A stretch of 25,142 nucleotides of DNA, taken from IMG/VR virus record IMGVR_UViG_3300006802_000513, positions 1 through 25,142 of that record, one strand, 5' to 3'. Each line of letters begins with the position of its first letter. Positions within the stretch are counted from its first letter, which is position 1. The notes below the pieces were generated by a model. It was not told where the DNA came from and ran no database searches. It saw only the letters and a program-made list of their open reading frames with translations. A program made the position numbers and the translations under genes. Positions 3,601-22,533 of the stretch are shown in pieces. This DNA comes from a virus.

Positions 3601-4463
3601 CTTTGTCCCGAATGTTGCGGGAAGACATGGAGGAACTAAATCGCCGAGCAGGGACACAGTACGAGGATGACCCAAGTGATTCATTGCCGAGTGCGAACTG
3701 GAACGCTCACTTGGGTCTGCCAGATAATCGGAAGTTGGCAAAACACACATTGGTGAGTGATTTGGCAAAAGCGTTGGTGGCAACACTGCCACCCGAAGTT
3801 ATTTTGCAAGCCTCTTACGAACTTGACCGCAATCCAGATGACCCACCAATCAAGCCAGTGACATCTGCCGACCTTCAGAAACCGCCTCTCGCTGGAATAA
3901 ACATGGAAGATAGGGCTGTTGATGTTGTCAACAGGATTATTGGGCAGTGGGCGCAGTCATCAAACGATTCTTTGAGATTGAGTCTTGCCATTCAACAGGT
4001 TGTTGCTAGGGAGTTCGGCTTGACAGAACACGCTCCTGTTTCGGCAATACGCTACGCAGACAAATCGGTAGATGAACAAGCAAAAGAGTTGAGTGACCCC
4101 AACAGCGCATCGGGTAAGTTGCTTGCGGCTGTAGTTAGGCAACAATACGCTAATACTCAAGCCTATTTTGAGGCTAAAGGAATCAAAGAAGTGACACTTC
4201 ACAGGGGGTTTGACGACCCTCAGATTGGGGTAGGAGAACAAGAGGTCGTGTTGCGCCCGCTGTCATCGTTTTCCGCTTCTAACTACATTGCCAGTCGGTT
4301 TGCATCAGAAGAAGTGAGGGACGGCAAGGTGATGATAGTCAAAGTGGCAGTATCACAGATTTTTTCTACGCCGTTCACAGGTATCGGTTGTTTGCCAGAG
4401 GAAGAGTTTGTTGTTTTGGGCGAGCCTATGACCGCAAGCGTGGAAAGAAGGGTAGACGGATGA
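612..4463 (+). CDS. Large multidomain tagged protein: two HExxH metallopeptidase-like modules, HNH module, ADP-ribosyltransferase-like module
   Basis: 1283 residues. The GTG start overlaps the upstream stop and has AAGGAG eight bases before it. Order: acidic leader (1-30); tag (33-55); module 1 with HEWGH at 289-293 and a likely third zinc ligand E343 in AEGFSAWF; tag (458-480); paralogous module 2 with HEFGH at 706-710 and E765 in AEGFASWF; an HNH-type module (about 853-925) with CxxC at 880/883, DH at 892-893 and CxxC at 912/915; tag (942-964); and a C-terminal R-S-E ADP-ribosyltransferase-like module with R1198 in LHRGF, SSFSAS at 1218-1223 and EEE at 1263-1265. Both metallopeptidase modules share landmarks such as AFG, LQALDDI and FALQP, so they arose by duplication. 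The domain calls come from motifs only. The whole reads as a polyprotein of effector-like enzymes separated by tags; substrates are unknown. Confidence 0.85.
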   Translation: MTIPTLDEMDDAVEGLLELFEEEDSESADDLIKASFGGDRSAAGRYAAQQRWKNHVKRQTQTGGNRSTDEQLSQGPKNLAFGRDENGLPIVGTRKELEARYGKTDKERAAYFKKKYGIKVTFADIKGQDGNRHPDAIEAKLGSLQALDDILSNLNVIPVGLTTNPPISEIRIGTENEMQGLFGSVPIGFVIHGKEDSRQFRLQIDTAECDAMAMDLIARTLPVTEQEALMGLEDDSPLNLVNLRREEETGGLTIASRFGIREASRDKTKQSREDEQSVVRRLGYAIMVHEWGHVLDTQSLFDSEQRTNIKDYTSDRLFDSPAWRETPEVSEYGRSRTWEKIAEGFSAWFLFSQSTKPVLYYSPKTNVYSSEASRWLKNQEVLDVQSLISPTLRPLFDSLRPPQTSEQVLKQVGSFVTTVADLPFDHPVVVFALQPSTDDSVKKVKIRVDAMIQAALAKASFGGDRSAAGRYAAQQRWKGHTKKEPKGRSGRLPSSEVRTIEQKLADGPQSFAFGVDEKGLPVIGTVQQLEARFGNDFLAQEKYFMDKYGLKVVVGIGSGDRRRDPLEKNQTVLIQARLSALQALDDICSNLTRVPKGLEVFVTDSITPRGYTTLARINGFVQRNEEDTRIATLGVNIKTIDDCVSYLSGKQFPYERKQDVEEKVNVRFMYEGEPSAVQAVTTNLKSASEEDRATIVSRLAYGVMVHEFGHVLDLKGPWLPENFARHKIRYAHRSPAFDDDFREAPSVSGYGSVQAKWDPQEKMAEGFASWFLFSRSSNIVVPMYWDADGKAVSKDTVNMKTATSRLMRPLLEELKDVVKQLDISLDITKLLPTHPVLLFALQPFADDGVEKARPENPWKRGYNTEYFRFRDAVLARKPLCYKCRKNQAMEVDHVRPLINGGSNTVGNLRPICRSCNRKSGGGERRVKKSVRVDAMVQLAFDKASFGGDRSAAGRYAAEQRWKGHVKREDMPKPSGFIGVSRTNRGTEAYPSHLYDLALSRMLREDMEELNRRAGTQYEDDPSDSLPSANWNAHLGLPDNRKLAKHTLVSDLAKALVATLPPEVILQASYELDRNPDDPPIKPVTSADLQKPPLAGINMEDRAVDVVNRIIGQWAQSSNDSLRLSLAIQQVVAREFGLTEHAPVSAIRYADKSVDEQAKELSDPNSASGKLLAAVVRQQYANTQAYFEAKGIKEVTLHRGFDDPQIGVGEQEVVLRPLSSFSASNYIASRFASEEVRDGKVMIVKVAVSQIFSTPFTGIGCLPEEEFVVLGEPMTASVERRVDG
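708..776 (+). repeat. Tag copy 1 (coding repeat)
   Basis: First of ten coding copies of the shared tag, residues 33-55 of the 1283-residue protein. It is preceded by DDLI, ends in QRWKNH, and precedes metallopeptidase module 1. It carries TCT for the Ser before Phe and AGG for the Arg after Asp. Confidence 0.9.
1983..2051 (+). repeat. Tag copy 2 (coding repeat)
   Basis: Residues 458-480 of the 1283-residue protein, between the two metallopeptidase-like modules and preceded by VDAMIQAALA. Its DNA is almost the same as copy 10 about 16.5 kb downstream, with changes mainly at a few codons in the middle. Confidence 0.9.
3435..3503 (+). repeat. Tag copy 3 (coding repeat)
   Basis: Residues 942-964 of the 1283-residue protein, preceded by VDAMVQLAFD, between the HNH module and the ADP-ribosyltransferase-like module. 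The Ser before Phe is AGT, not TCN, so this copy is old and the peptide is selected. Confidence 0.9.
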
Positions 4464-5224
4464 AACCCTTTGTTGTAGATAACAGTGTTTCCAACTCGGA
4501 TTGGATAAAGCAAGGCAAGTATGGGTTTGATTTCCCGTTCGTGAAAACGGTAGAGGATTTTGAGCGAGAGTTTCGTGTGCCTGCTGATGAGCCTGCTCGT
4601 GGTAAGAGGTTGGAAGAGTTGGCGAAGTTGCCTTGGGTGGATGTTGCTCCTGAGCCGATTCAAGAGTTGTTGTTGGGCGTGAGGAAGTCTGTTGTGTTGC
4701 GGAAGATAGCGGTGCGCCGTGATGCGATGATTCAAGTTGCTTTAGCCAAAGCCTCTTTTGCTGGGGATAGGTCAGCGGCAGGCAGGTACGCCGCTGAACA
4801 GCGGTGGAAAGGGCATGTCAAGGCGGAGCCGAAAGGGCGTGATGTCAGGGGTGAGATTATTGAGACGGTGCGCCGTGAAGAGGGGATGTCGGTCAAAATA
4901 GATTCTGGGTTACAGCCGACAAGCGGTTACATGGTGGCTAGGAAGGAATACAGCAAGATTGTTTCGGCTGAGGATTTCTTTGATGCGAACAAAGGGAGGA
5001 AGATTTTGAGTGATTTCTTGAAACAGAACCGTGAGCATTTTCAGGAAGACCAGTATCTAGGTATTTGGTTCAATACCAATAACGGGAAAGTGTATTTGGA
5101 CATTACTGATAACATTGCGGACAGACAAAAAGCCGAGAGTTTGGGCAGGGAACGAAATCAGATTTCTATTTGGGATGTTGTGAATAAGGTTGAGATTCAG
5201 ACTGGAGGAACAGGTGAAGGATAA
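4460..5224 (+). CDS. Tagged phage protein with C-terminal domain of unknown function
   Basis: 254 residues from the ATG that overlaps the upstream stop (ATGA), with a GAAAGAAGGG purine run upstream. A 95-residue N-terminal region contains two short Trp-bearing segments and ends in RRDAMIQVALA. The tag follows at residues 97-119, in the SFAGD variant. The C-terminal domain (about 150-250) contains YLGIWFN, GKVYLDITD, LGRERNQISIWD and a final EIQTGG. I recall similar arrangements in other actinobacterial phage proteins, but I know no function. It has the same layout as its neighbours, tag then C-terminal module, so it is probably another member of the tagged set. The next small gene starts inside its last codons. 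Confidence 0.8.
   Translation: MKPFVVDNSVSNSDWIKQGKYGFDFPFVKTVEDFEREFRVPADEPARGKRLEELAKLPWVDVAPEPIQELLLGVRKSVVLRKIAVRRDAMIQVALAKASFAGDRSAAGRYAAEQRWKGHVKAEPKGRDVRGEIIETVRREEGMSVKIDSGLQPTSGYMVARKEYSKIVSAEDFFDANKGRKILSDFLKQNREHFQEDQYLGIWFNTNNGKVYLDITDNIADRQKAESLGRERNQISIWDVVNKVEIQTGGTGEG
4748..4816 (+). repeat. Tag copy 4 (coding repeat, SFAGD variant)
   Basis: Residues 97-119 of the 254-residue protein. The first Gly of the core is Ala; the rest matches. It is preceded by RRDAMIQVALA, paralogous to the segments before copies 2 and 3. Confidence 0.9.
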
Positions 5225-8373: not shown

Positions 8374-9855
8374 ATGGCGAGTAAAGACGATTTCATTGAA
8401 CTTGGCTCCTCGGGTCTTGGTAAAACCTCGGGCTTCGTTATTGACGAGTTCATTGCAGAACTTCGTGGAATCCGTGGTGCCCGTGTCTACCGAGAAATGT
8501 CGGACAACGACCCCGTTGTTGGGGCGATGGTTTATGCGATTGAAAAACTGATTCTTGCTATCAAGTGGGAGGTCGCACCATACCAAGATGGCGACCAGCC
8601 AGTCAAAAAGAAAGACCAAAAGAACGCCGACTTCCTTGAGGAGTGCATGTACGACATGAGCGAATCATGGTCGGCGATGGTTTCGCAGATTCTTTCGTTC
8701 CTCGTCTACGGGTACGCCTTCTGTGAGATTGTGTACAAGAAGCGTGTGTCTCCTGATTCCAAGAACGGCGAGAAGCGTTCCAAGTACACGGACGGCAAAA
8801 TCGGTTGGCGCAAGATTGCTTTGCGTGGTCAGGAAACTTTGTGGGATTGGGTGTTTGATGCGAATGGTGGTGTGCGGGCGTTTCAACAGCAAGACCCTTA
8901 CGCCGATAAAGGTTTGGTGACGATTCCTATTGAGAAGGGTTTGTTGTTCCGCACCGCCAATCCTCGCAACAATCCTGAGGGTCGCAGTATTCTTCGTAAC
9001 GCTTACCGTCCGTGGAAGTTCAAGAAGACGATTGAGGAGATTGAAGCGGTTGGTATTGAGCGTGATTTGGCTGGTTTGCCTGTTGCTTATGTTCCGCCGT
9101 CAATGCTGTCTTCGGCGGCGACAACTGCCGAGGTGAGTGCCCGTAATGCGATGCAGGATTTGATTCGTCGCATCAAACGAAACGAGAACGAGGGTGTGTT
9201 GTTTCCGTTGGCTTACGACGAGCAAGGCAGGGAACTGTACAAGTTGACGCTTCTGAACTCTGGAGGCACACGCCAGTTCAACACGGATGCAGTGGTTCAA
9301 CGGTATGACCAGCGGATAGCGATGACAGTGCTGGCTGACTTCATTCTTTTGGGGCACGACAAGGTTGGTTCGTTCAGTTTGGGTGCATCCAAGATTGACT
9401 TGTTCACTTCGGCGATTCAACAGATTGCCGACACGATTGCCGATACTTTCAACGACCATGCCATTCCTCGTTTGTTCAAGTTGAACGGTTTGGACACGAC
9501 TCGTTTGCCCGAAATCAAGGCTGGTGAAATCACCCATGTTGACCTTGGTGTGTTGGGTGACTTTGTTTCTAAGATGACTGCCGCTGGGGCTATGCAACCC
9601 GATACGGCGATGGACAACTATCTGCGTGGTTTGGCGAATCTGCCTCCTCGTTCTGAGGAAGAGGGTGGGATGATGGCTCCTCAGGGGATGGACCCGTTGA
9701 TGGGTGGACAACAGCCAGCGGGGGCACCGCCAGCGGGGGCACCGCCCGCACCCCCAGCGGGCGCACCCGCAGGCGCACCGCCCGCTGATGCGACTGCTTC
9801 TTCTCCGAACTTCTTTGAGATGGCGGTTCAGCAGGAACAACAAAAGGGAGGCTGA
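8374..9855 (+). CDS. Portal protein (DUF935/Mu gp29-like)
   Basis: 493 residues, a usual portal length. Portals form the dodecameric ring at one capsid vertex through which DNA is packaged and ejected. Recognisable segments are PVVGAMVYAIEKLI near residue 50, SFLVYGYAFCEIVYKK, RGQETLWDW, the NPRNNPEGRSILR segment, and a long stem-like helical part (KKTIEEIEAVGIERDLAGLPVAYVP without the final residues shown). The last 60 or so residues are a Gly/Pro/Ala-rich tail. The immediately downstream MuF-like gene supports the call. The ATG at 8374 has no Shine-Dalgarno match; I keep it because the frame closes shortly upstream. Confidence 0.9.
   Translation: MASKDDFIELGSSGLGKTSGFVIDEFIAELRGIRGARVYREMSDNDPVVGAMVYAIEKLILAIKWEVAPYQDGDQPVKKKDQKNADFLEECMYDMSESWSAMVSQILSFLVYGYAFCEIVYKKRVSPDSKNGEKRSKYTDGKIGWRKIALRGQETLWDWVFDANGGVRAFQQQDPYADKGLVTIPIEKGLLFRTANPRNNPEGRSILRNAYRPWKFKKTIEEIEAVGIERDLAGLPVAYVPPSMLSSAATTAEVSARNAMQDLIRRIKRNENEGVLFPLAYDEQGRELYKLTLLNSGGTRQFNTDAVVQRYDQRIAMTVLADFILLGHDKVGSFSLGASKIDLFTSAIQQIADTIADTFNDHAIPRLFKLNGLDTTRLPEIKAGEITHVDLGVLGDFVSKMTAAGAMQPDTAMDNYLRGLANLPPRSEEEGGMMAPQGMDPLMGGQQPAGAPPAGAPPAPPAGAPAGAPPADATASSPNFFEMAVQQEQQKGG
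9716..9785 (+). repeat. PAGAP-encoding tandem repeat in the portal C-terminus
   Basis: Two perfect 15-base units (9716-9730 and 9731-9745) followed by degenerate units encoding PAGAP/PAGA. It gives a flexible low-complexity tail, and such tracts often vary in copy number. Confidence 0.75.
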
Positions 9856-9856
9856 A

Positions 9857-10804
9857 ATGCCTACCCACAGTCACGACATTGACTTTGAGGCGGTAACGAA
9901 GGCGGAGATTCTTGACCCTGTATTGGCTCAGGAGATTCAGGCGTTAGCCAATCTGTACGATACGGCGTTTCGTGGGCTTGCCGCCGCCGCAGAGCGGGCT
10001 AGGAACGCCATGATTGCCGCTGGAAGGACATCTACAGCCGATTTGAGGGGCTTTCAGGAGGTCTTTGCGGCGGAGGTGCAGAGAACCCTCGGAGCGTCGC
10101 TCTCGGATGTTTCTGAGGGCACTCGTGCCCAGTTGTTGAGGGATGTTGAGCGTTCTATCAGAGAGTTGCCTCAAGGAATCAGTGTGACGATGCGATTTGA
10201 CCGCACTGACCCAAGGGCTATTCAGTGGGCTTCTACTCGTGCTGGAACTTTGATTCGCCAGATTCAGTCGGAGACATTGACGGCTGTTAGGCGCATTGTT
10301 GCTGAGGCTTTGACTGAGGGTTCTGGGGTTTTTGCGGCGGCTCGTCAACTGTCTCGGGTGGTCGGGTTGCATGACCGTTGGCAGACCGCTGTTGACAACT
10401 TTTATGAAAGCGAGGTTGAACGGTTGGCAGAGTTGTTTCCTGAACTGGGTGCCGACGAGTTGGCTCAAAGGGCGCAGGTGTCGGCTGAGTCGTATCGGGA
10501 ACGGTTGATTGCTTCTAGGGCTGAGACGATTGCTCGGACGGAGATTATTGCCGCTCAGAATACGGGGCAGTTGGTGTCTTGGTTGCAGGCGGCTGACCAA
10601 GGGTTGTTGGACTTGAATCGTGCTCAGAAGGAGTGGGTGGTCGGTCCTGATGGTTGGGCGGGCATTGCGGTATGCGAAATCTGTTTGGAGTTGGGTGGGG
10701 AAACGGTGCCTGTGCTTGGGGTGTTTTCTAATGGTGAGGCGTATCCGCCTGCTCATCCAAACTGTCGTTGCAACATGAATCTGATTGTGGAGTTGGAGGA
10801 CTGA
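9857..10804 (+). CDS. MuF-like head morphogenesis protein
   Basis: 315 residues, ATG after GGGAGG. The N-terminal part is helical (LAQEIQALANLYDTAF, AAAAERARNAMIAAG). The MuF domain occupies the C-terminal half: RTEIIAAQN (R227, T228, E229) in the conserved central helix, then a Cys pair C273/C276 (CEIC) and HPNCRC at 300-305, likely zinc ligands. MuF proteins (SPP1 gp7 family) are minor head proteins bound to the portal. In many temperate phages the MuF domain is fused to C-terminal toxins. Here it ends right after the domain, and toxin-like modules sit in separate tagged genes. It directly follows the portal, and the next gene starts two bases after its stop. Confidence 0.9.
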   Translation: MPTHSHDIDFEAVTKAEILDPVLAQEIQALANLYDTAFRGLAAAAERARNAMIAAGRTSTADLRGFQEVFAAEVQRTLGASLSDVSEGTRAQLLRDVERSIRELPQGISVTMRFDRTDPRAIQWASTRAGTLIRQIQSETLTAVRRIVAEALTEGSGVFAAARQLSRVVGLHDRWQTAVDNFYESEVERLAELFPELGADELAQRAQVSAESYRERLIASRAETIARTEIIAAQNTGQLVSWLQAADQGLLDLNRAQKEWVVGPDGWAGIAVCEICLELGGETVPVLGVFSNGEAYPPAHPNCRCNMNLIVELED

Positions 10805-10805
10805 G

Positions 10806-12305
10806 ATGCCTTGGTCTTTGATGCGACGAGATGGGGATGTTTTGGTTGTTCGGGATAGGGATAACAAGGTTGTTGGGAGACATAAGAATCGGGCGAAGGC
10901 GTTGCGCCATTTGAGGGCGTTGTATTCGCTTGAGAAAGCCTCGTTTGGGGGCGACCGTTCTGCGGCTGGGCGGTACGCCGCAGAGCAGAGGTGGAAGGGG
11001 CATGTGAAGCGGGAGGGTGCTGGTAGTCCGCCGTCTGGTGGGGCAGGCGACTTCATGCGATTGGTCAACGGCACGCCGCAGACCTACACGGTCAAGGGTG
11101 TGATTCAGGTTCATGGGTTCGGCATTGAGGGTGCTGGTTCGTACTACGACGATTTGGTCAAAGCCGACCCGACTGAGGAAAGCAACTCAAGTGGCGTGTG
11201 GCAGACGACCGTTGGAGAGTTTCGGCGTATGGCTACCAGCGGTCAGTTGGACTTGTCACCAAAATGGGTTGACCATGTGGTTCGCAATCTGCAAGACCAG
11301 CCAGATGACACGAGGGTTGCGGTGGAGATTGGCGTTGGTTCCGTGGTATTTAGAAAAGAACCAGTGACACCAGTTAGACCCGACGAGCCGCACACTCCAC
11401 AGGACATCAGAACGCTCGGTGTCGCTTGGAACAGTAGCGCACAGTTGGAAGAGGATTCTGGATTGGCGAATGACACCGAAAAGAAGTTGACCGTCAACAC
11501 GAGTCCCAGGAACAGGGGACCAGTCAAGTCTGGAACGCTTAGCCGCTGGGAGAAAGGGTGGGAAACGGATTATTACAACATGCCCTACTGCAAGGAAATC
11601 GCAAGTCACGCCGCCTATCTGATGGGACAAATAGATGCTCCAGTGGAACGATGGGGGCGTCGCACGGGTTTCAGGGCACCATCGGATTCAATGTTGGCGC
11701 AGGACGCCAAAGATTTGTTGGCGGGCGTCAACCAAGGCGTTGAAGGTCAACCTGTTCTGTGGCGGGGCTTGGATACACGGCAGTCTGCCGCCAAAAAAGC
11801 GGTCGCCGATGCCAAAGTGGGAGACACGATGACCCTCGGTTTGGCTTCAACCAGTAGGGATTTGCTTGCGGCGGCGAAATACACCCCGTCCTATTCGGAG
11901 GGGGTTCCGCTGGTAGTGATGCGGATAGAGGAAGGGTCAAAGGGTGTTTCTATCGGCGATAGGGCGGTGTATCGGCACGACCAAGAGGTGATAACGAGCG
12001 GCAAGTTTGAGGTCACCGAGATACAAAAGGTGACCGTGCCCAAATGGCGGTTTCCCAAAGCCAGTTTGGGTGGCGGGGTTGAGACGATGGAGCCGTCCAA
12101 GAAAGTCGCCTTGGAGCGTGATGCGGCACAAAGGTTGAAGGGGCTGTTGACACCAAAGCAGTATGCGCCCATTGAGCGGTACTTGCGGGGGCGAGAAAAA
12201 GAAGCCGCCAAATACGAGAAGGAAACCATCACGGTGAAGGTTGTTTCGGTTCGTCAGACGGAGACTTTCAACCCTGAGACTGAGGAGTTTGAGACAAATG
12301 GCTGA
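10806..12305 (+). CDS. Tagged ADP-ribosyltransferase-like protein
   Basis: 499 residues. The ATG at 10806 follows GGAGG; a longer upstream frame is ignored because it overlaps the MuF gene without a ribosome site. A short N-terminal unit (VLVVRDRDNKVVGRHK, then a KALRHLRALY helix) resembles N-terminal pieces often seen on phage capsid-associated proteins. The tag is at 44-66. A middle region of about 170 residues is unassigned. The C-terminal half has an R-S-E ADP-ribosyltransferase pattern: R320 in LWRGLD, STS at 348-350 (LASTSRD), and D392-Q393-E394, where E394 would be the catalytic Glu. Such enzymes transfer ADP-ribose from NAD+ to target proteins; T4 Alt is an encapsidated example. The target here is unknown. 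A charged helical tail follows. Confidence 0.8.
   Translation: MPWSLMRRDGDVLVVRDRDNKVVGRHKNRAKALRHLRALYSLEKASFGGDRSAAGRYAAEQRWKGHVKREGAGSPPSGGAGDFMRLVNGTPQTYTVKGVIQVHGFGIEGAGSYYDDLVKADPTEESNSSGVWQTTVGEFRRMATSGQLDLSPKWVDHVVRNLQDQPDDTRVAVEIGVGSVVFRKEPVTPVRPDEPHTPQDIRTLGVAWNSSAQLEEDSGLANDTEKKLTVNTSPRNRGPVKSGTLSRWEKGWETDYYNMPYCKEIASHAAYLMGQIDAPVERWGRRTGFRAPSDSMLAQDAKDLLAGVNQGVEGQPVLWRGLDTRQSAAKKAVADAKVGDTMTLGLASTSRDLLAAAKYTPSYSEGVPLVVMRIEEGSKGVSIGDRAVYRHDQEVITSGKFEVTEIQKVTVPKWRFPKASLGGGVETMEPSKKVALERDAAQRLKGLLTPKQYAPIERYLRGREKEAAKYEKETITVKVVSVRQTETFNPETEEFETNG
10935..11003 (+). repeat. Tag copy 5 (coding repeat)
   Basis: Residues 44-66 of the 499-residue ADP-ribosyltransferase-like protein, preceded by ALYSLE. 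The Ser before Phe is TCG. Confidence 0.9.
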
Positions 12306-13899
12306 TTTAGGTTTTATTGGCGACCTGTGGTTTGACAGAACTGACGAACTGGATGAGCGGATGCGATTGGCTGACCTCATCAAAGCCTCGTTTGGTGGTG
12401 ATAGGTCTGCCGCTGGGCGGTATGCGGCTGAGCAACGCTGGAAGAATCACAGGAAGAAGGAAGAGGATGCGAAAGGTCGTCAGGCTGGTGACGGGTCGTT
12501 GGACGATGAGATTTCTCGTGTTGTCGGTTTGATGTCTGCTTTGCGGGAGTTGCCTTATTCTGTTAGCGGCAACGACATTATTGAGGTTGAGGAGTGGGAA
12601 AACTACAGCGGGTCGTTGTTTGTTGGCGTGTTGATTCGGGGTAAAAGATTTAGGGTTGCTACGAAGCAAGTTATTGAGGCTGAGCAGGCAGTGAACGCTT
12701 TGGGTAAGCGGGTATTGAAGGAGATTACGGAGAAGTTGATTGCCGAAGGAAAGTTGACTCAGCAACAAGTTGATGATGCGAAGAAGTTTCGGTCGGCTGA
12801 GGAAGTTGGTGCTGATGCCGAAAAATCTTTGATAGATAAGGCGATGAGGGGTGATGATGATGTGCCCGACGAGGTTCGTGAGGCGGCGATAAAAGTGTCT
12901 GAAGCAAAGGAGAAAGCATCTGAGGCGAGGAAGGCTTTGATGAAAGCCACGAAGGCGTACAACCAACATAGAGAAATAAGTGGTTCCTATGACGAAAAAA
13001 GTCGCCAGTTGTATTTGGCAAGGGTAGAGGCTAAAAACAACAGTTCTATCGCTCGTAGTGCTCTGAAAGATGCGGAGTATGAGTTGGAACGGGTTGTCGG
13101 GTTTGTTGTGGCTGGGGAAAGGGAGATGGCTGGCGAAACCCAAAAGTCAAAGGAAGCGCAGAAAGCGAACTCGGTTTTGGTTCAGCAGATTATTGGCGCA
13201 GAGTTTCAGGCGTTTTTGTCATCTCGCCGAGAAATGGGTGAAGTGTATCCGTCCAGAAATACCACGGTTCCTCAAAGGGTATTTGATAAGAGTGGGAAAC
13301 TGGTTGATGGTAATGCTCTTGCGGCTGACATTATGGGTGCGGCGGCGAGACGATTCCCCCAAGCATTGTTGTCCAAAACAGAAACTCCTTTGGGTAAAAA
13401 GGTTGAGATTGTTTTTGGTGGTCGTGGCGGTTCATACAATGAATCAAATAATCGTATTCGTTCTGACTTGGATGACAGTGACACTTTGACGCATGAGACG
13501 GTGCACAACATCTCGTATTACAGTCGTGAAACTCGTGCTATTGAGCAGGCGGGGTTACAGCGAAGGATTTTTGGGAAGGTTGATGAGGGTGATGCTTCGT
13601 TTGCGGAGAAGTTGAAGATTGGTTTGCAAAAAACGGTTGGTGCGACTAAGGCGTTGGGGTACAGATTTGAGGGCAGTTATGTTGAAGACAAGTTTGTCAA
13701 TGGTTATCAGGGGCGTTTGGATTACAACTATGGTTCACGAAAAGAGGGTTACAACTTGACTCGTGCTACCGAGATTTTGACTGTTTCTACGGAGAACGCT
13801 TTTGGCGGTAACTACAAGTTCAAGCAGACGGGTAAGTTGGATGATGATTTGTTGGCTACGGCTATTGGTTGGTTGTTGACTGCGGAGGGTGGACAATGA
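12298..13899 (+). CDS. Tagged HExxH metallopeptidase-like protein with long coiled coil
   Basis: 533 residues; the ATG at 12298 overlaps the previous gene's end by eight bases. A short leader (MADLGFIGDLWFD) is followed by DLI and the tag at 29-51. A long Ala/Lys/Glu-rich helical or coiled-coil region covers about 120-290 (KVSEAKEKASEARKAL is typical). The C-terminal part has HETVH at 399-403 and a candidate third zinc ligand E492 in RATEILTVS, giving a zinc-peptidase pattern. The SLEAD-like residues of well-known families are absent, so the exact family is not assigned. It differs from the two HExxH modules of the 1283-residue protein, so the tag is paired with at least two peptidase types. 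The stop overlaps the next start (ATGA). Confidence 0.75.
   Translation: MADLGFIGDLWFDRTDELDERMRLADLIKASFGGDRSAAGRYAAEQRWKNHRKKEEDAKGRQAGDGSLDDEISRVVGLMSALRELPYSVSGNDIIEVEEWENYSGSLFVGVLIRGKRFRVATKQVIEAEQAVNALGKRVLKEITEKLIAEGKLTQQQVDDAKKFRSAEEVGADAEKSLIDKAMRGDDDVPDEVREAAIKVSEAKEKASEARKALMKATKAYNQHREISGSYDEKSRQLYLARVEAKNNSSIARSALKDAEYELERVVGFVVAGEREMAGETQKSKEAQKANSVLVQQIIGAEFQAFLSSRREMGEVYPSRNTTVPQRVFDKSGKLVDGNALAADIMGAAARRFPQALLSKTETPLGKKVEIVFGGRGGSYNESNNRIRSDLDDSDTLTHETVHNISYYSRETRAIEQAGLQRRIFGKVDEGDASFAEKLKIGLQKTVGATKALGYRFEGSYVEDKFVNGYQGRLDYNYGSRKEGYNLTRATEILTVSTENAFGGNYKFKQTGKLDDDLLATAIGWLLTAEGGQ
12382..12450 (+). repeat. Tag copy 6 (coding repeat)
   Basis: Residues 29-51 of the 533-residue protein, preceded by ADLI and ending QRWKNH. 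The leader resembles that of copy 1 (DDLI). Confidence 0.9.
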
Positions 13900-14236: not shown

Positions 14237-16984
14237 ATGGCTGACAGTTATTCACCGCCTGAGGGTGTCCGTGCGGAGGCTCGTCGTGCCTTGAAGTGGA
14301 TTGAGGAAGGTCAGGCTGGTGGTGGTTTCACGGATGTGGGTCGTAAGCGTGCATCGGATTTGGCTCGTGGAGCGTCGGTGTCGTTGAAGACAATCAAACG
14401 AATGAACTCTTATTTGGCTCGGCATGAAGTTGACAAGCAGGGGAAGGGTTGGTCGCAAGGTTCGGATGGTTACCCGTCCGCTGGGCGTGTTGCTTGGGCG
14501 GCTTGGGGTGGTGATGCGGCGAAGTCGTGGGTTGGGAAGATTCTTCGCTCGGTAGAGAAATCAGTTGATGCGATTGCTGTTGACCCTGCTCAGATGGATT
14601 TGGATTTGGCGTTGGGTTGGGCTGAGGGGGAGATTGCTTGGGAAGAGTTGCCTGACCATGTTCGGGAGGCTATTGACGAAGTGATGTCTGAGGAGATGCC
14701 GAAGGATGTTGAGGCGGATGTTGATGCGATGGTCAAAGCCGATGAGCAGGTTGAGTTGTTGCATAAGTCGGATTCGGAGCATCGTTTTACGCTCGGTCCT
14801 TGGTACATCCCTAATCGGTATGACGCTCACGGTGAGTGGACTGATGCTGATGAGTTGCAGAAGGCGTTGTGGGAGTATGTGAGGACTGGTGACCGTGACA
14901 TCAGATTGCAACATAATCGGGACATTGTGGCTGGTGAGTGGTTGGAGGCGATGTCGTTTCCCGTTCCTGTGAGTATCGGTATGCAGAAGTCTGGGGAAGC
15001 GAAGCAGGTGACTTATCCGTCTGGGACGGTGTTTCTTGGTGTGCAGTGGAAGCCGTGGGCGTGGGAGATGGTGAAGGAGGGGAAGATTCGGGGTTTTTCC
15101 ATTGGTGGTGCGGCGGCTCGTATTGAGATGGAGATGCCGTCCGATGCGATTGAAAAGGCTTCGTTCGGTGGTGATAGGTCGGCGGCGGGACGCTACGCCG
15201 CTGAGCAACGCTGGAAAAATAACTCCAGTTATCCGCTTCGTATGGCTGAGGATGTTGCTTCTCACATTGCTGGGCGTTTGGCGATGGCTCGGGCTAGGAA
15301 AAAGTTGATGCAGGAGGAACGGGGTAAGCAATCTTTGTGGGAGCGAATCAAGTTTGTGTTTTCTCGGGAGTACACGAATCCTGAACCGTTGGCTCGTAAG
15401 TGGGTGAGGGAGGCGGCACGGTTAGCGATGCAAGACAGGGGGCGACTTGCCGACCCTGAGGTGGCTTCGGTCGTGGATTTGCCTGCTGGACGGCAAGCGA
15501 TTTTGAGTCGGGGCAAGTTGATTACGGTCGGGAAAACTGTTGACCGTGATGAAATCAAGAGTCGGATGAGGGAAGTTGCAAAGCAACAGCCAACTTCCAC
15601 GCAGGTGCATGTTGACAGCATTATGGGCGGGAAGAAGAAGCGTAAGAAGAAGCAAATAGATGTGCCGATGGTGAAGAAAGTTCGGAATGTTCCCACGGAC
15701 ATGAAGTTGTATTCACGGGTGAAGTCTGAGGCTAAGAAAAAGTTTGATGTCTACCCTTCGGCTTATGCGAACGCTTGGCTGGTGCAGGAGTACAAGAAGC
15801 GTGGCGGAAAGTACAAGATTGAAAAGGCTGTTTCATTTGGGGGTGACCGTTCAGAGGCGGGTAGGTATGCGGCTAACCAACGGTGGCAAGGTAGGGGGCA
15901 TGTTGCCCAAAAGTATGTACGGCAATGGCACCGTGAGAATGGTCGTGGACCTATTCGGTACCCGACAACACCGCAAGGTAAGATGTTGGGTAGGAGCGTG
16001 CCAAGTCTGCAAACTTGGTGCGATTTAGATGCTCTTGCTCAGGATTTTGCCGCTCAAGGTAAAAGCCTTGACAGCGTTGACGCACCAGCAATCATCTACG
16101 AGCATTTGAGTGACGAACGCCGTGCAGTCTGGGATGCGATTATTCGCAAAGGTGGTGAGGGGGTTCCCCAAGGAACGAACCCGAACGGTTCACGAGTGTT
16201 TGTCAAAGCGGGTGGTGGTGGTGCGGGCAAGTCGTCAACACCACAGATTGAAGGAGTTGCCATCCCTACGGCTGGCGAGAAAGATGCTGATGGAAAACCG
16301 ACGCCCCGTTTGGCGGTGATGACCAATGCCGATGACATCAAAGAGGTTTTGCCCGAGTGGAAACAAGCGGAAACTGCCAGCGATGCTGGTCGTACCAAAA
16401 CCCCCAGAGGCAAAGAAGTAGCAACTGGACCGCTGATGGATAGGCGTGCATCTATGGTGCATGAAGAATCGTCACAGATTGCCGCATTTCAAGTGACTTC
16501 CGCCATCAAAGCAAAACAAGATGTGATTGTTGACGGTACGATGGACAACGGCGTAGATAAATCTCTCGCCAAACTCGCTTCATACCGTGATAACGGTGCC
16601 GCCGAAGTACACATGATTGCCTATTCGTGTGACACAAATGAAGCAGAAGACCGCGCTTACAGGCGTGCCAAGGAAACAGGAAGAAAGGTTCCAACCGAAA
16701 GTTTGCGTAATGCTCACATCAAAGTGTCAACGAACTTCCCCGTCTATCTGGAAAAAGGCAACTTGGATTCGGTAACCGTCATTGACACAAACAGAAACGA
16801 TGATGGTTCCAAGCGTCCAGCGGAAAAGATTTTTGAGTACAAGCCAAGTGGCGGTATCAAGATTCTGAATCAAGCGTTGTATCAGAGGTTCCTTGACAAA
16901 AGGAACGACTCTAAGAAATCGGGCATCAACCCGAACAGGATTGACCAAGAAATACGAGAAGAGATACAGAGGAGTGAAGCGTGA
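14237..16984 (+). CDS. Capsid maturation protease (S78_2/XkdF-like) fused to a zeta-toxin-like kinase
   Basis: 915 residues. The first ~100 residues form an arginine- and glycine-rich helical domain (DVGRKRASDLARG, RMNSYLARHEVDKQGKGW, PSAGRVAWAAWGGD) often found before phage proteases. The protease domain (about 180-305) has FTLGPWYIPN, H226 (LQHNRD) and the nucleophile motif GFSIGG with S288. Tag 7 follows (307-329). Then come a helical region, QPTSTQVHVD (451-460), a lysine-rich KKKRKKK patch, a DUF5872-like segment (PSAYANAWLVQEYKKRGG) and tag 8 (about 533-555). The C-terminal third is zeta-like: Walker A GGGGAGKSS (659-667, K665), HEESS (742-746), DGT (766-768) and Arg-rich R806-R810/R816. 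Zeta toxins phosphorylate UDP-sugar cell-wall precursors. The fusion links head maturation to a toxin-like enzyme. Confidence 0.85.
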   Translation: MADSYSPPEGVRAEARRALKWIEEGQAGGGFTDVGRKRASDLARGASVSLKTIKRMNSYLARHEVDKQGKGWSQGSDGYPSAGRVAWAAWGGDAAKSWVGKILRSVEKSVDAIAVDPAQMDLDLALGWAEGEIAWEELPDHVREAIDEVMSEEMPKDVEADVDAMVKADEQVELLHKSDSEHRFTLGPWYIPNRYDAHGEWTDADELQKALWEYVRTGDRDIRLQHNRDIVAGEWLEAMSFPVPVSIGMQKSGEAKQVTYPSGTVFLGVQWKPWAWEMVKEGKIRGFSIGGAAARIEMEMPSDAIEKASFGGDRSAAGRYAAEQRWKNNSSYPLRMAEDVASHIAGRLAMARARKKLMQEERGKQSLWERIKFVFSREYTNPEPLARKWVREAARLAMQDRGRLADPEVASVVDLPAGRQAILSRGKLITVGKTVDRDEIKSRMREVAKQQPTSTQVHVDSIMGGKKKRKKKQIDVPMVKKVRNVPTDMKLYSRVKSEAKKKFDVYPSAYANAWLVQEYKKRGGKYKIEKAVSFGGDRSEAGRYAANQRWQGRGHVAQKYVRQWHRENGRGPIRYPTTPQGKMLGRSVPSLQTWCDLDALAQDFAAQGKSLDSVDAPAIIYEHLSDERRAVWDAIIRKGGEGVPQGTNPNGSRVFVKAGGGGAGKSSTPQIEGVAIPTAGEKDADGKPTPRLAVMTNADDIKEVLPEWKQAETASDAGRTKTPRGKEVATGPLMDRRASMVHEESSQIAAFQVTSAIKAKQDVIVDGTMDNGVDKSLAKLASYRDNGAAEVHMIAYSCDTNEAEDRAYRRAKETGRKVPTESLRNAHIKVSTNFPVYLEKGNLDSVTVIDTNRNDDGSKRPAEKIFEYKPSGGIKILNQALYQRFLDKRNDSKKSGINPNRIDQEIREEIQRSEA
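15155..15223 (+). repeat. Tag copy 7 (coding repeat)
   Basis: Residues 307-329 of the protease fusion, directly after the protease domain and preceded by SDAIE. It ends QRWKNN instead of ending in His. Confidence 0.9.
15824..15901 (+). repeat. Tag copy 8 (divergent coding repeat)
   Basis: Residues 530-555 of the protease fusion, in front of the zeta-like kinase. Variants: an extra Val before Ser, Glu instead of the first Ala after DRS, ANQRWQ instead of the usual AEQRWK or AQQRWK, and an added Arg-Gly before His. Confidence 0.85.
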
Positions 16985-17229
16985 TTGAACCCAATGATTA
17001 TGAGATGTGTAAGCACATTGCCGACATGCTGATGGAGGGTGCAACCGAAGACGATTTGAGGTCTTTCGGTTATCTGAATACGGACGAAAGCCGTTTGTGT
17101 TATGCGGCGGCTAAGGAGCGTCCTGAGTACTGGTCAAACATTGCTTTGGATACGGAAGCGGCTGGTTGTATGTCGTATCTGCCCGAGGAATGGTTGGAAC
17201 GAAACAAGGATTGGTACACACCGTTATGA
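16981..17229 (+). CDS. Small acidic protein coupled to the zeta-like kinase gene
   Basis: 82 residues. The GTG start overlaps the protease-kinase stop by four bases, and GAGGAG lies upstream. It is helical and acidic: YEMCKHIADMLMEGATEDDL, then CYAAAKERPEYWSN, then YLPEEWLERNKDW. No family is recognised. Zeta kinases in plasmid systems are held inactive by a small helical epsilon antitoxin of about 90 residues. Size, charge and position make this a candidate partner for the upstream kinase domain, but I see no epsilon sequence signature. The next gene starts inside its stop (ATGA). Confidence 0.65.
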   Translation: MIEPNDYEMCKHIADMLMEGATEDDLRSFGYLNTDESRLCYAAAKERPEYWSNIALDTEAAGCMSYLPEEWLERNKDWYTPL

Positions 17230-18296
17230 CATGCGATTGTGGTTGCGGTTCTTCGCTCTCCAAGGGTGAGCAGAAGGTATTGAAACATTTGAGGGATGGG
17301 GTGTTGTGGGGTTTGCCTGACGCTTTGTGGTCGCAGGTCGTTTCGGAGGTTGAGAAGGCGGGTTCTATTACGAAGGTTGCTGGTTCGGCGCAAGTCATTT
17401 TGTACGATGCGATTCAGAAAGCCGCTGGAGGTTTCGGTGGTGACCGTTCCGCCGCTGGTAGGTATGCCGCTCAACAGCGTTGGAAAGGTCATGTGAAACA
17501 AGAGCCTCAAGGGGCTGGTGGTGGTGCGGCTGGTTTGCCTGCTGGTACCAGTGAACGGTTGGGTGCGCCTGTGAGATGGGACCCGAAATCTCGTCGGGAA
17601 ATCGTGAAGGTTTCTACGGTGGAAGAGGCTTACGAGGAGATTGCCAAGGGAAATCTTGTGGAGATGAACTCTCCTCAGGAGGCGTTCACCATCGTTGAGA
17701 AGATGGCGGAGTATGTCAAAGAGGTTGAGAAGAAGACTGGTGAGAAGGCAAAGAATCTGAACTTTTGTCAAATCTCAGTTCCAGGTACGAACTTGTTTTG
17801 TGGTTCGTCTGTGGCTACAGACAAGTATCCCGATGGTGTGCCTCGTGCTGAGATGCCTCAGTTGTCGGGTATCCCCGAGGAGGGCAGTAAGGCTGACAAG
17901 TTGGCTCGCATTGACGAGGAGGGCAATGTTGACATTTCTAAGAGTTTGATTGAGAGGTTGGCTAAGGCTGGTGTGGAGACGAAGGAGATGGAGGTGTCGG
18001 CTTCTATGTTGAAGGCGTCGCAGAGCGAGTTGAAGGGTAAGACGGTTTCGTTCTTTTTGACGCCTAAGGGTCAGAAGATTCTGAATGATGATTCGGCTGT
18101 CATTTTCGTTTCTCGTGATGGTTATGTGATTGACGGTCATCATCGTTGGGCTGGAAAGGTTTTTCAAGACTTGCAGGATGGCAAAACTGGGGATGTGAAG
18201 ATGCGGGTGAAGGTGATTGACATGCCGATTATGGAGGTTTTGGACGCCGCACTTGACCACAGTGATGACATGGGCATCAAGAGGAAGAAAGGATAA
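17226..18296 (+). CDS. Tagged ParB/sulfiredoxin-like protein
   Basis: 356 residues; the ATG overlaps the previous stop by four bases. The N-terminus starts with a Cys-rich TCDCGCGSS, then a roughly 50-residue helical unit (LWSQVVSEVEKAG, VILYDAI) that is paralogous to the N-terminus of the next gene. The tag, with a two-residue insertion, is at 65-89. After a Gly-rich linker, the C-terminal domain contains NLNFCQISVPGTNLFCG, PQLSGIP, an EVSASMLKASQSEL segment and SRDGYVIDGHHRW with DGHHR at 303-307, the signature loop of ParB/sulfiredoxin folds. I recall this domain in many prophage proteins, usually annotated ParB-like nuclease. Other proteins of the fold cleave DNA, hydrolyse CTP or phosphorylate, so the true activity is open. 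Confidence 0.8.
   Translation: MTCDCGCGSSLSKGEQKVLKHLRDGVLWGLPDALWSQVVSEVEKAGSITKVAGSAQVILYDAIQKAAGGFGGDRSAAGRYAAQQRWKGHVKQEPQGAGGGAAGLPAGTSERLGAPVRWDPKSRREIVKVSTVEEAYEEIAKGNLVEMNSPQEAFTIVEKMAEYVKEVEKKTGEKAKNLNFCQISVPGTNLFCGSSVATDKYPDGVPRAEMPQLSGIPEEGSKADKLARIDEEGNVDISKSLIERLAKAGVETKEMEVSASMLKASQSELKGKTVSFFLTPKGQKILNDDSAVIFVSRDGYVIDGHHRWAGKVFQDLQDGKTGDVKMRVKVIDMPIMEVLDAALDHSDDMGIKRKKG
17418..17492 (+). repeat. Tag copy 9 (coding repeat, with two-residue insertion)
   Basis: Residues 65-89 of the ParB-like protein: KAAGGFGGDRS in place of KASFGGDRS, then the normal core and QRWKGH. Ser is replaced by Gly before Phe. Confidence 0.88.
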
Positions 18297-18303
18297 TGTT
18301 TTG

Positions 18304-19356
18304 ATGCGTTTGGCTGACCAGTATCTCCTTGCCCAGATTAGGGAAAAGTTGTTGAGCCACATCCCCGATGACCAGTGGAGGCTGGTTGAGGAGGAGGTTG
18401 ATAAGGCTGGCGGTGTTCGTGAGGTTGGCGGTTACACGGGAGTGTTGTTGACCGATGCGATTAGCAAAGCGAGTTTTGGCGGTGACCGTTCGGCGGCTGG
18501 TCGTTATGCCGCACAACAAAGGTGGAAAGGGCACACCAAAGACGACACCAGCGATAGTCCGAGGGCACAAGCGGCAGGTGCCGCACCGCCGCCAAATCCA
18601 AATGGACCCAGTGGCAGGAAAGCCGCCGACGCTCGCTCGGCACAACGCAACGCTGGTCCTAAGGCAGAACTCAGTGCCGACATCAAAGATGCTGATTTGA
18701 GTGAGTTGGCGGGCATGATTGTTCGTGACTTGAGAGCGCAGGGTAAGCAAGTTCCTGCGGCGGCGAAACCGTATCTTGATGCAATGCGAACGATGGGAAG
18801 CATAAACGAAAACTACGGCATGGACAGCGGTGCTTCTATTGTCGGCTATTTGTTGAGTAATCTGAGTCAATACAAAGGTGAAACTGCTCGTCTAATCAAA
18901 GCGGAGTTGAAGTCTCGGTTGAAGAATCAGAGACTTTCTGACATGGAACCCAACCCCAACAGGCGTGACACGATAACAACCGCTTCTCCGATGGGGGGAG
19001 ATACGCAGATTGTTCGCTCAGAGCCTAAAGGTTCTGCAAAGTTCAACAGTGGGAAAAAAATGATGCTTGACTCCCTCAGAAGGGAGTTTTACCCAAAGGT
19101 AAATGCGGCTTTGGCGAAAGACCCCGAGAAAATCAAGGCAAACTACGAGAAGGAGATTCAACGAAAAGAGAAAGACCTTGACCGCCTTCGTGCTGGCAAA
19201 ACGAACTTTGGGGAGTTCAACACATTGAATCCAAGGAAAGCCACGATAGGCAAAAGAATCAAGGAGATTGAAGGACAAATAGAAGGCTTGAAGGGCGAAC
19301 TAGCGGGAATAGACGAGTATCTGGATGAGACTTCGCCAGGATTTTTCTCTTCGTAA
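18304..19356 (+). CDS. Tagged protein with C-terminal coiled coil, function unknown
   Basis: 350 residues; ATG with AAAGGA ten bases upstream, seven bases after the previous stop. The N-terminal ~54 residues (LREKLL-like helix, QWRLVEEEVDKAG, VLLTDAI) match the plan of the upstream ParB-like protein. The tag lies at 55-77. A Pro/Ala/Gly linker (AAGAAPPPNPNGPSG) leads to a helical middle (LSELAGMIVRDLRAQG, YLLSNLSQYKGETARLIKAEL) and a Lys/Glu-rich coiled coil near the end (YEKEIQRKEKDLDRLRAG, then RIKEIEGQIEGLKGEL). No catalytic motif is seen, so I cannot assign a function. It could be a further effector or a structural cargo. A terminator-like hairpin lies inside the gene at 19070. AT-rich noncoding sequence follows. 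Confidence 0.75.
   Translation: MRLADQYLLAQIREKLLSHIPDDQWRLVEEEVDKAGGVREVGGYTGVLLTDAISKASFGGDRSAAGRYAAQQRWKGHTKDDTSDSPRAQAAGAAPPPNPNGPSGRKAADARSAQRNAGPKAELSADIKDADLSELAGMIVRDLRAQGKQVPAAAKPYLDAMRTMGSINENYGMDSGASIVGYLLSNLSQYKGETARLIKAELKSRLKNQRLSDMEPNPNRRDTITTASPMGGDTQIVRSEPKGSAKFNSGKKMMLDSLRREFYPKVNAALAKDPEKIKANYEKEIQRKEKDLDRLRAGKTNFGEFNTLNPRKATIGKRIKEIEGQIEGLKGELAGIDEYLDETSPGFFSS
18466..18534 (+). repeat. Tag copy 10 (coding repeat)
   Basis: Residues 55-77 of the 350-residue protein, preceded by TDAIS. The Ser before Phe is AGT. The DNA nearly matches copy 2, including an identical run from the Tyr codon region through the QQRWKGHT codons. Confidence 0.9.
19070..19090 (+). terminator. Terminator-like hairpin inside a coding region (weak)
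   Basis: ACTCCCT (19070-19076), loop CAGA, AGGGAGT (19081-19087), then TTT. The shape resembles an intrinsic terminator with a seven-base stem, but it lies within the coiled-coil gene. It may be chance, or it may attenuate read-through. Confidence 0.25.
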
Positions 19357-20357: not shown

Positions 20358-21143
20358 TTGAGCAAGAAACAGCGAAAGATGGTGGCTCTCAAAGTCTTGG
20401 AGACGAGCGGTGTAGACCACCCCGCCCATCTTGAAGAGGGCTGGATTGTAATGAAGAACGCAGGAACCACAACGGAGGAAACCGTGTCAGAGAACAACGA
20501 GATGACTTCACAAGAGATTGACCCAACGCTGGAAGAGGCGTACATTGACCGCATCGTTGAGTTGGAGAAGTCGCTCGCCGCTTCTGAAAAACTTGTCGCC
20601 GACCTCACTGAGACTGCCGAGAAGGCAAAGATGAAGGCGGAAGAGGAAGAGGAGGAAGAGGACGAGGAGGAGATGGACGAAGAGGCAACCTACAAGGCTC
20701 TCGTCAAGTCACTCCCAGAACCCGTCCGTGAAATGTTGAAGAAGGCGGAAGATGCCGCCGCTTCGGCAACCGAGGAACTTCGCAAGGAGCGGGAAGCCCG
20801 CCGTGACGAAGAGTTCGTTCAGAAAGCCGCAGGATGGGAACACATCACTGTTGATGCCAAGGAGTTCGGACCAGCACTTCGTCGTCTGACCGACATTGAC
20901 GCAAATCTCGCCGAGCAGGTGGAAAAGGCTTTGGAAGCCGCCAACGCTCAAGCCGAAAGTGCCGCCATCTTCTCGGAGATTGGTAGCGGAAGTCGTCCAG
21001 ATGAGAGCAGTGCCTACGCCAAGGTGCAGGCAATGGCGAAAGCCGCTCATCAGGCAGGAGAGTTCTCCACCGTTGAGCAGGCGGTGTCGGGAATCATTGC
21101 AAAAAACCCAGACCTCTATGCGGCATACCGCAACGAGCAATAA
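20358..21143 (+). CDS. Capsid scaffold protein (XkdF C-terminal-like)
   Basis: 261 residues; TTG start with AGAGG upstream. The beginning (VALKVLETSGVDHPAHLEEGW, then IVMKNAG) resembles the segment that opens the scaffold half of XkdF-like proteins. The centre is a very acidic coiled coil (a run of Glu/Asp at about 94-106) followed by long Ala/Glu helices (AEDAAASATEELRKEREARR, EQVEKALEAANAQAES), ending YAAYRNEQ. Scaffold proteins shape the prohead and are removed, often by the head protease. The order scaffold, cement protein, major capsid supports the call. In many phages protease and scaffold are one polypeptide; here they are separated by three tagged or coupled genes and a small insert. 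Confidence 0.8.
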   Translation: MSKKQRKMVALKVLETSGVDHPAHLEEGWIVMKNAGTTTEETVSENNEMTSQEIDPTLEEAYIDRIVELEKSLAASEKLVADLTETAEKAKMKAEEEEEEEDEEEMDEEATYKALVKSLPEPVREMLKKAEDAAASATEELRKEREARRDEEFVQKAAGWEHITVDAKEFGPALRRLTDIDANLAEQVEKALEAANAQAESAAIFSEIGSGSRPDESSAYAKVQAMAKAAHQAGEFSTVEQAVSGIIAKNPDLYAAYRNEQ

Positions 21144-21582: not shown

Positions 21583-22533
21583 ATGCCACAGCCAACATCA
21601 ACCCAAGTCCATGTTGATGCGATTCTGACCAACATCAGCGTCGCCTACATGCAACAGCAGGCGAACTTCATCGCCACCAAGGTGTTCCCAATCGTCCCTG
21701 TGTCAAAGCAGTCGGACAAGTTCTTCACTTACACGAAGAACGACTGGTTCCGTGACGAAGCACAGCGTCGTGCTGATGCGACCGAATCCGCTGGTGGCGG
21801 TTACGGGCTGTCAACGGATTCGTACCAGTGTGATGTGTACGCCTTCCACAAGGACATCGGTGACCAGACTCGTGCAAACGCAGACGCACCGATTCAGGTT
21901 GACCGTGAAGCCGCAGAGTTCGTCACCAGCCGTTTGATGCTGAAGATGGAGACGCAGTTCGTGTCCACCTTCTTCACCAGCGGTGTGTGGGCAACCGATG
22001 TGACCCCAAGCAACCTGTGGAGCGACTACACCTCGTCTGACCCGCTCAACGATGTTGAGAGTGGCAAGCGTGCAATCCTCGCAACCACTGGCTACGAGCC
22101 GAACACTCTGGTGCTTGGTTACGATGTGTTCAAGACACTGAAGAACCACCCAGACCTCGTTGACCGCATCAAGTACACCTCGTCGCAAACGCTGACCGAG
22201 GGTTTGATGGCGTCACTGTTTGACATCCCACGAGTAATGGTGGCGAAGTCGGTCAAGGCAACCAACGCCGAAGGTGGCACCGCCGCTTACGATTTCACCC
22301 ACGGCAAGAACGCCCTCCTCACCTACTCGGCTCCCTCGGCAGGACTTCTCCAGCCTTCGGGTGGCTATGTGATGTCGTGGACGGGTGTATCGCAGGGTCT
22401 CGGGCAGACCGTTGGCACCAGCCGTATCCGCATGGAGCAGTTCAAGGCTGACCGCATTGAAGCCGAAGTGTCATTTGACATGAAGGTCATCGGTTCGGAC
22501 TTGGGCTACTTCTTCAGCGCAGTCGTCGCCTAA
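21583..22533 (+). CDS. Major capsid protein (HK97 fold)
   Basis: 316 residues; ATG with AGGAGA upstream. Typical landmarks: N-arm QPTSTQVHVDAILTNIS, then VAYMQQQANFIATKVFPIVPV, FFTYTKNDWFRDEAQRRA, an alpha/beta core with ILATTGYEPNTLVLGYDVF and KNHPDLVDRIKY, and a C-terminal YFFSAVVA. This form of coat protein is common in siphoviruses of Actinobacteria. Codon use here is richer in C-ending codons than in neighbouring tagged genes, as expected for the most expressed gene. Unlike HK97 gp5 there is no large N-terminal scaffold domain, so scaffolding is supplied by the gene at 20358. The ten residues QPTSTQVHVD also occur in the protease fusion. Confidence 0.92.
   Translation: MPQPTSTQVHVDAILTNISVAYMQQQANFIATKVFPIVPVSKQSDKFFTYTKNDWFRDEAQRRADATESAGGGYGLSTDSYQCDVYAFHKDIGDQTRANADAPIQVDREAAEFVTSRLMLKMETQFVSTFFTSGVWATDVTPSNLWSDYTSSDPLNDVESGKRAILATTGYEPNTLVLGYDVFKTLKNHPDLVDRIKYTSSQTLTEGLMASLFDIPRVMVAKSVKATNAEGGTAAYDFTHGKNALLTYSAPSAGLLQPSGGYVMSWTGVSQGLGQTVGTSRIRMEQFKADRIEAEVSFDMKVIGSDLGYFFSAVVA

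Follow-up and report, generated by a model that had tools for sequence, protein, structure and literature searches.

A prohead protease that carries a zeta-fold kinase at its C terminus is encoded in a viral contig of 25,142 bases with tailed-phage head genes (IMG/VR record IMGVR_UViG_3300006802_000513; hereafter the window). The gene lies at 14237-16984 on the + strand and is a single open frame, from ATG to stop, of 915 residues, in which a capsid maturation protease of the S78_2 (XkdF) type is joined to the kinase through two copies of a short peptide, here called the tag. A small acidic open reading frame (ORF) follows. Sequence comparison with relatives shows that the kinase and the small ORF form one cassette, inherited and exchanged together and bounded upstream by the tag; as judged from these sequences the pattern is the same as that of toxin and immunity genes in polymorphic toxin systems. 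We read the locus, with a probability of roughly 55%, as a polymorphic-toxin-like kinase/immunity cassette mounted on a prohead protease, the kinase being packaged and delivered to the next host. The original prediction, made from the DNA letters, had described one 915-residue frame with an S78_2-like protease, two tags and a kinase. All of these were recovered at the positions given, and that parts list was incomplete, having overlooked a phrog_2859 domain, a DUF5872 domain and the small ORF at 16981-17229. The parts of the locus are as follows, a middle region separating tag 1 from DUF5872.

14237-16984, + strand: 915-residue protease-tag-DUF5872-tag-zeta kinase gene (single frame, Pfam, same fusion in relatives)
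14252-14629, + strand: N-terminal phrog_2859-like domain, residues 6-131 (PHROG, 1e-40)
14750-15127, + strand: S78_2 (XkdF-type) capsid maturation protease, residues 172-297 (Pfam Peptidase_S78_2, 5e-11)
15155-15223, + strand: tag 1 (KASFGGDRSAAGRYAAEQRWKNN), about 10 residues past the protease domain (tag search)
15692-15835, + strand: DUF5872 core, residues 486-533 (Pfam range 486-566, 1.5e-11)
15830-15895, + strand: tag 2 (VSFGGDRSEAGRYAANQRWQGR), bounding the kinase module on its upstream side (boundary role seen in relatives)
15914-16981, + strand: zeta-fold kinase module, residues 560-915, Walker A K665 (structure model, PDB fold matches, conserved motifs)
16981-17229, + strand: small acidic ORF, 82 residues, candidate immunity protein of the kinase (GTG start, co-inheritance)

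All Pfam matches in the 915-residue protein exceed their gathering cut-offs. The Peptidase_S78_2 profile scores 43.1 bits against a cut-off of 24, and the catalytic His226 and Ser288 (in GFSIGG) are invariant across 18 aligned relatives. The Zeta_toxin profile (PF06414) matches residues 658-853 with an E-value of 6e-12 and 45.8 bits against a cut-off of 22.3. The zeta fold, for which structure prediction had been named as the check, was returned with confidence: the AlphaFold2 (AF2) model of the kinase module, built with 15 relatives, has a predicted local distance difference test (pLDDT) score of 88.4 and a predicted template modelling score of 0.86. Its closest solved folds (VIA Z) are AvrRxo1 (18.4), zeta (3q8x, 17.8) and PezT (16.7), the next fold scoring 11.8; superposition on 3q8x gives a root-mean-square deviation of 4.4 over 238 aligned residues. 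The expected motifs are in place, with K665 in GGGGAGKSS, HEESS from residue 742 and DGT from residue 766. Invariant among 15 aligned kinases are the Walker A GK, D and K in NADDIK, HEES, and DG (G114, G115, G119, K120, D154 and K157 among the alignment-numbered positions); late arginines are nearly so. The zeta fold and these invariant active-site motifs together make an active kinase likely; the dN/dS ratio (non-synonymous to synonymous substitution rates) of the kinase is saturated for several pairs. The model of the full-length protein is poor (mean pLDDT 62), no fold being claimed for residues 1-485, and in it the tags fall in linkers of low confidence where a short helix is predicted, a result that an exposed joint would allow but that does not count as evidence for one.

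AvrRxo1 is an NAD kinase. Because it is the closest solved fold, UDP-N-acetylglucosamine is probably not the sole likely substrate here, the AvrRxo1 and zeta Z scores of the model being tied within 1. The same likeness, together with the presence of ART domains among other tagged modules, would suit a virion-delivered counter-defence or metabolic enzyme, acting for example on NAD or nucleotides, rather than a toxin, with the small protein as its subunit or chaperone. We consider this unlikely: the two Z scores hardly separate the candidate folds, and an acidic partner that is strictly swapped together with the kinase is typical of immunity proteins and less so of chaperones.

The joining of protease to kinase is a genuine and conserved fusion. 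About 20 contigs, drawn from independent samples, encode protease and kinase in a single frame, with identities falling to about 70% for the protease and about 28% for the kinase; some of these contigs are near-duplicates, and E-values from our local profiles are relative to the fetched loci. The original prediction had allowed that a sequencing frameshift might have joined two genes, and a frameshift or assembly artefact could be imagined in one metagenome contig in which the tag is a repeat. The recurrence of the architecture in independent samples leaves that explanation a negligible chance, and we reject it.

A scan seeded by the protease domain alone found the kinase in 24 of 25 complete tagged protease frames. 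The same scan returned 49 complete frames with neither tag nor kinase, and three in which the kinase stands behind a joint other than this tag, KH..HDQxTH in two cases and HGDPSRPNY in one. In each of six larger contigs that have the kinase it lies in the protease frame, while a contig of 61.8 kb has the protease and no kinase. DUF5872 is kept in relatives, and the phrog_2859-like N-terminal domain belongs to a separate tagged gene in three of them (L068, L074 and L106; L numbers denote relative loci). The kinase occurs on two families of prohead protease and on MuF: in L121 (775-2385) a protease of the other family, S78 (PF04586), bears a zeta kinase, with a small acidic ORF after it, and in L127 and L120 the carrier is MuF. 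In cyanophage PSS2 the kinase lies within a minor head protein that continues for most of 1500 residues, so that the test for a small partner is inapplicable there. We found no report of a prohead protease as carrier of a zeta kinase in a literature search made largely without subscription papers.

Exchange of the cassette is visible in pairs of close relatives, and the tree of the protease conflicts with that of the kinase. Between L106 and L074 the difference is 0.4% over the 2560 nt up to the tag, 22.5% from the tag to the kinase stop, 15.9% in the small ORF and 1.5% beyond it, the dense differences beginning within the tag core and ending 20 nt before the end of the small ORF. L087 and L106 have protease domains that are 100% identical, kinases that are 39% identical and unrelated small ORFs; L087 and L068 share 74% identity in the kinase and 72% in the small ORF. 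In partial Mantel tests across 14 phages, the small ORF goes with the kinase once the protease is controlled for (0.72, p 0.0002) and shows no such association with the protease once the kinase is controlled for (-0.06, p 0.69). In L098 (3718-5550) the kinase and the small ORF are both missing, and the protease frame continues across a tag, within which the junction lies, into the following gene's ParB-like module, an arrangement whose sequence looks like a natural deletion between two tags. These exchange and deletion patterns identify the kinase and the small ORF as a unit with the tag as its upstream edge. An effector behind a constant carrier, exchangeable together with an adjoining small gene, is characteristic of polymorphic toxins in general, and this arrangement is found here. 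In L087, a frame that appears Dps/ferritin-like by eye lies 3' of the small ORF, between the cassette and the next gene shared with L106.

The small ORF of the window begins with GTG, overlaps the kinase stop codon and encodes 82 residues with an isoelectric point (pI) of 4.2. Small acidic ORFs (pI 4.05-4.67) occupy the same spot in tagged relatives with enough downstream sequence, nearly all relatives having one after the kinase, and in L031 the ORF is fused to the next tagged gene. Such an ORF follows 29 of 45 kinase frames compared with 29 of 680 other long frames (p 2e-24, from loci that are not fully independent, which weakens the count as support for the toxin-immunity reading). At least three of the kinase frames scored negative (L174, L175, L178) adjoin a small ORF of the same type that falls outside the test criteria. 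Stand-alone kinases some kilobases from the protease also have a small ORF after them (L174, L175, L178, L181), and there is none where the kinase is absent (L098, L083, L112). An immunity function of the small acidic protein can be inferred from this sequence pattern. In L217 (5308-8748) a frame of 1146 residues unites in a single polypeptide the protease, the zeta kinase and, after the kinase, a segment similar to the small acidic protein.

How the system might work can be set out as follows. The carrier is the S78_2 protease that matures the prohead, and the cargo is the zeta-fold kinase behind a short basic tag, with its small acidic partner. The tag may be the phage's own address label for the prohead, comparable to the T4 capsid targeting sequence, and the kinase would enter the prohead together with the protease. 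A cleavage site may adjoin the tag, in which case the kinase would be released near it, stay with the DNA and be ejected into the next cell. In the new host it would phosphorylate a sugar-nucleotide or NAD-like substrate, and in the producing cell the small acidic protein would neutralise it. The system would thus resemble a polymorphic toxin with a capsid protease as its trafficking domain.

Zeta kinases act within the cell that makes them, and the partner gene lies directly downstream of the kinase, overlapping its stop codon. Both facts would also suit a kinase that works in the producing cell, freed late from the protease to weaken the cell wall or halt the host, with the small protein setting the timing. 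Fusion to a protein that enters the prohead would be odd for a cytoplasmic effector, however, and the carriers, two protease families and MuF, are all prohead proteins; we regard this alternative as improbable.

Several findings weigh against packaging and delivery of a toxin-immunity pair. L098 keeps the protease and the tag but has no kinase, and in some tag-bearing contigs the protease has neither tag nor kinase; the kinase is thus dispensable. The small ORF matches no known antitoxin in Pfam, PHROGs or PDB sequences, and its assignment to a known antitoxin family was accordingly rejected; its two sequence types are only weakly linked to each other (hhalign P 0.001, probability 8%). Self-release of the protease at the tag is putative, and the scaffold-like and major capsid proteins have no tag. 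In L112 and L113 (G005 25000-42500, G004 33000-39000) tagged ORFs are also present beyond the head cluster, close to nuclease-like genes and others unrelated to the head, so that the tag is not strictly a head-gene feature. Finally, the relatives are all uncultivated contigs.

The tag itself has the core R-S-[AE]-A-G-R-Y-A-A-x-x-R-W, whose invariance is partly imposed by the search pattern, and the flanks K-A-S-F-G-G-D and K-G-H. Of 2.9 million viral contigs scanned by pattern, about 70 have it. It is internal in position, either tens of residues from the start or between modules. Cutting the tagged proteins at the tag yields 76 upstream and 53 downstream families combined in many ways, certain upstream families being paired with 9 to 12 different downstream modules. 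These modules include ART, GNAT and zeta kinase domains by Pfam, and HExxH and ParB-like ones by eye (names given by eye are not profile matches); most have no Pfam match. An ATLF match in one module (E 0.014) was rejected, being below the cut-off, and taken as a chance match to HExxH. Multiple tags per polypeptide, up to five, occur in 56 of 259 tagged frames, which fits cutting apart better than targeting alone. As a known domain the tag has no Pfam match; it is almost absent from cultured phage records, gave only two chance-like matches in 84,980 cellular genomes, where no host prophage was found, and is printed in none of the papers accessible to us. One tag, in L030 (63-110), is broken by a stop codon in frame (RYAAE*RW), which may reflect decay of the module or an error in sequencing.

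The window holds ten copies of the tag spread over seven genes, and 388 of the 435 codon differences among them are synonymous; it is therefore the amino-acid sequence, and not the DNA, that is conserved. This bears on the suggestion that the tag is a mere recombination-friendly linker for module shuffling, with no role in packaging or cleavage, a view that concerns the tag only and is compatible with the other kinase readings. That tags hold the boundaries of exchange and deletion and join many module pairs speaks for it. The peptide is nevertheless held while DNA homology is weak, most synonymous sites differing, and a plain linker would need no such core, even allowing for the part fixed by the search pattern; we think the linker-only view doubtful. 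The tag could alternatively be a general recognition site of the protease, and its conserved length of about 20 residues, with its absence from the scaffold-like and major capsid sequences, weighs against this.

Related phages without the tag have another repeated motif, preceded by K, at the same place (KH..HDQxTH, NPNHD..GRF or HGDPSRPNY), and these alternative joints are nearly always of one kind per contig (among L174, L175, L178, L181, L180, L182, L189, L194-L196, L198 and L217). From these sequences we infer labels specific to each lineage, which the assembly machinery of that lineage would read. A more general proposal, for which we would give somewhat less than even odds, is a particle-borne modular effector system in which a lineage-specific joint marks every cargo for the prohead, the protease carries a toxin kinase, a previously undescribed small acidic family provides the cognate immunity and cassettes are swapped between phages.

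Several known systems share elements with this one. T4 internal proteins have only their targeting sequence in common (PMC3012670) and 30 residues of P1 DarB suffice for loading a reporter into heads (PMC9024508), so that a short loading label is plausible. In those phages diverse virion proteins bear a short signal, and here a short tag is shared by otherwise unrelated proteins that may be virion components; the T4 and P1 signals are N-terminal, whereas the tag is internal and may repeat in one polypeptide, and its targeting role is putative. MuF polymorphic toxins (Jamet et al. 2017, PMC5576092) likewise place an exchangeable C-terminal effector on a head-associated phage protein. That paper does not mention zeta kinases. 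The present system differs in that the carrier is the prohead protease, MuF is a separate, untagged protein and a shared internal tag marks the joint; the 915-residue protein has no Pfam match to a MuF domain. Polyvalent proteins (Iyer et al. 2017, PMC5512222) also combine several unrelated enzyme domains in one phage polypeptide, with proposed co-injection with the DNA, and that paper already names zeta-MuF fusions and proposes virion delivery of such domains. With protease and kinase, the protein described here has the two or more disparate enzymatic domains by which that class is recognised; a prohead protease as carrier, a repeated joint tag that the modules share and a co-swapped small gene are found here and do not appear in the available part of the paper. 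The epsilon/zeta and PezAT pairs, and AvrRxo1 with its partner ORF2, likewise have a kinase of the zeta fold whose gene neighbours that of a small protein. Compared with these systems, the kinase here is C-terminal to a capsid protease, and the partner, encoded downstream, has no match among known antitoxin families.

Here a kinase of toxin type, with a candidate gene for immunity to it, is found on a head maturation protease, which has to enter the prohead to do its work, and natural recombinants show the pair moving as a unit at a defined joint. This makes directly testable how proteins are chosen for loading, whether head proteases release cargo and whether phages shield producer cells from toxins borne on their own particles. 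Zeta partners would gain a new group in the small acidic family, and the joints would be candidate labels for protein loading into phage heads.

The protease gene lies between the portal/MuF genes and the scaffold/major capsid genes, as expected of an XkdF prohead protease. The head genes of the window are the following.

8374-9855, + strand: portal protein (Mu type), untagged (Pfam 8e-32, PHROG 1e-83)
9854-10804, + strand: MuF-type minor head protein, untagged (Pfam 8e-10)
20358-21143, + strand: scaffold-like acidic protein, untagged (position and composition; no Pfam match above cut-off)
21583-22533, + strand: major capsid protein, untagged (Phage_cap_E, 3e-5)

Its nearest counterparts are the proteases of Arthrobacter and Microbacterium phages, whose protease domains are 50-62% identical to that of the window; the records examined have no match to the tag or the kinase. 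In Kovu the S78_2 protease adjoins the portal gene and a second protease/MuF-position gene. Genes of this family often carry the annotation RNA ligase or aldolase class I in GenBank (Arthrobacter phages Kovu gp20, Salgado gp18, Laroye gp18 and others), and PHROG 14859 is likewise labelled RNA ligase.

The remaining tagged genes of the window are these.

612-4463, + strand: tags at 708-782, 1983-2057 and 3435-3509; two HExxH metallopeptidase-like modules and an ART-like module (by eye), HNH (Pfam)
4388-5224, + strand: tag at 4748-4822; module of no assigned function (tag search)
10785-12305, + strand: tag at 10935-11009; module without Pfam match, ART-like by eye
12241-13899, + strand: tag at 12382-12456; metallopeptidase-like (HETVH) by eye
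17166-18296, + strand: tag at 17430-17498; ParB-like (DGHHRW) module by eye, phrog_2859 match
18217-19356, + strand: tag at 18466-18540; module of no assigned function

The HNH endonuclease of the multi-module frame at 612-4463 lies between two tags (window 3249-3371, residues 880-920). In the middle region of the 915-residue protein, at about 15580-15625 of the window (residues ~449-463), the peptide QPTSTQVHVDSIM is a near-copy of the N terminus of the major capsid protein, MPQPTSTQVHVDAIL (21583-21627). The protease proteins of L182, L198 and L093 contain comparable PT...VHVD peptides, and the middle-region peptide could be a mimic of the capsid arm or a cleavage site.

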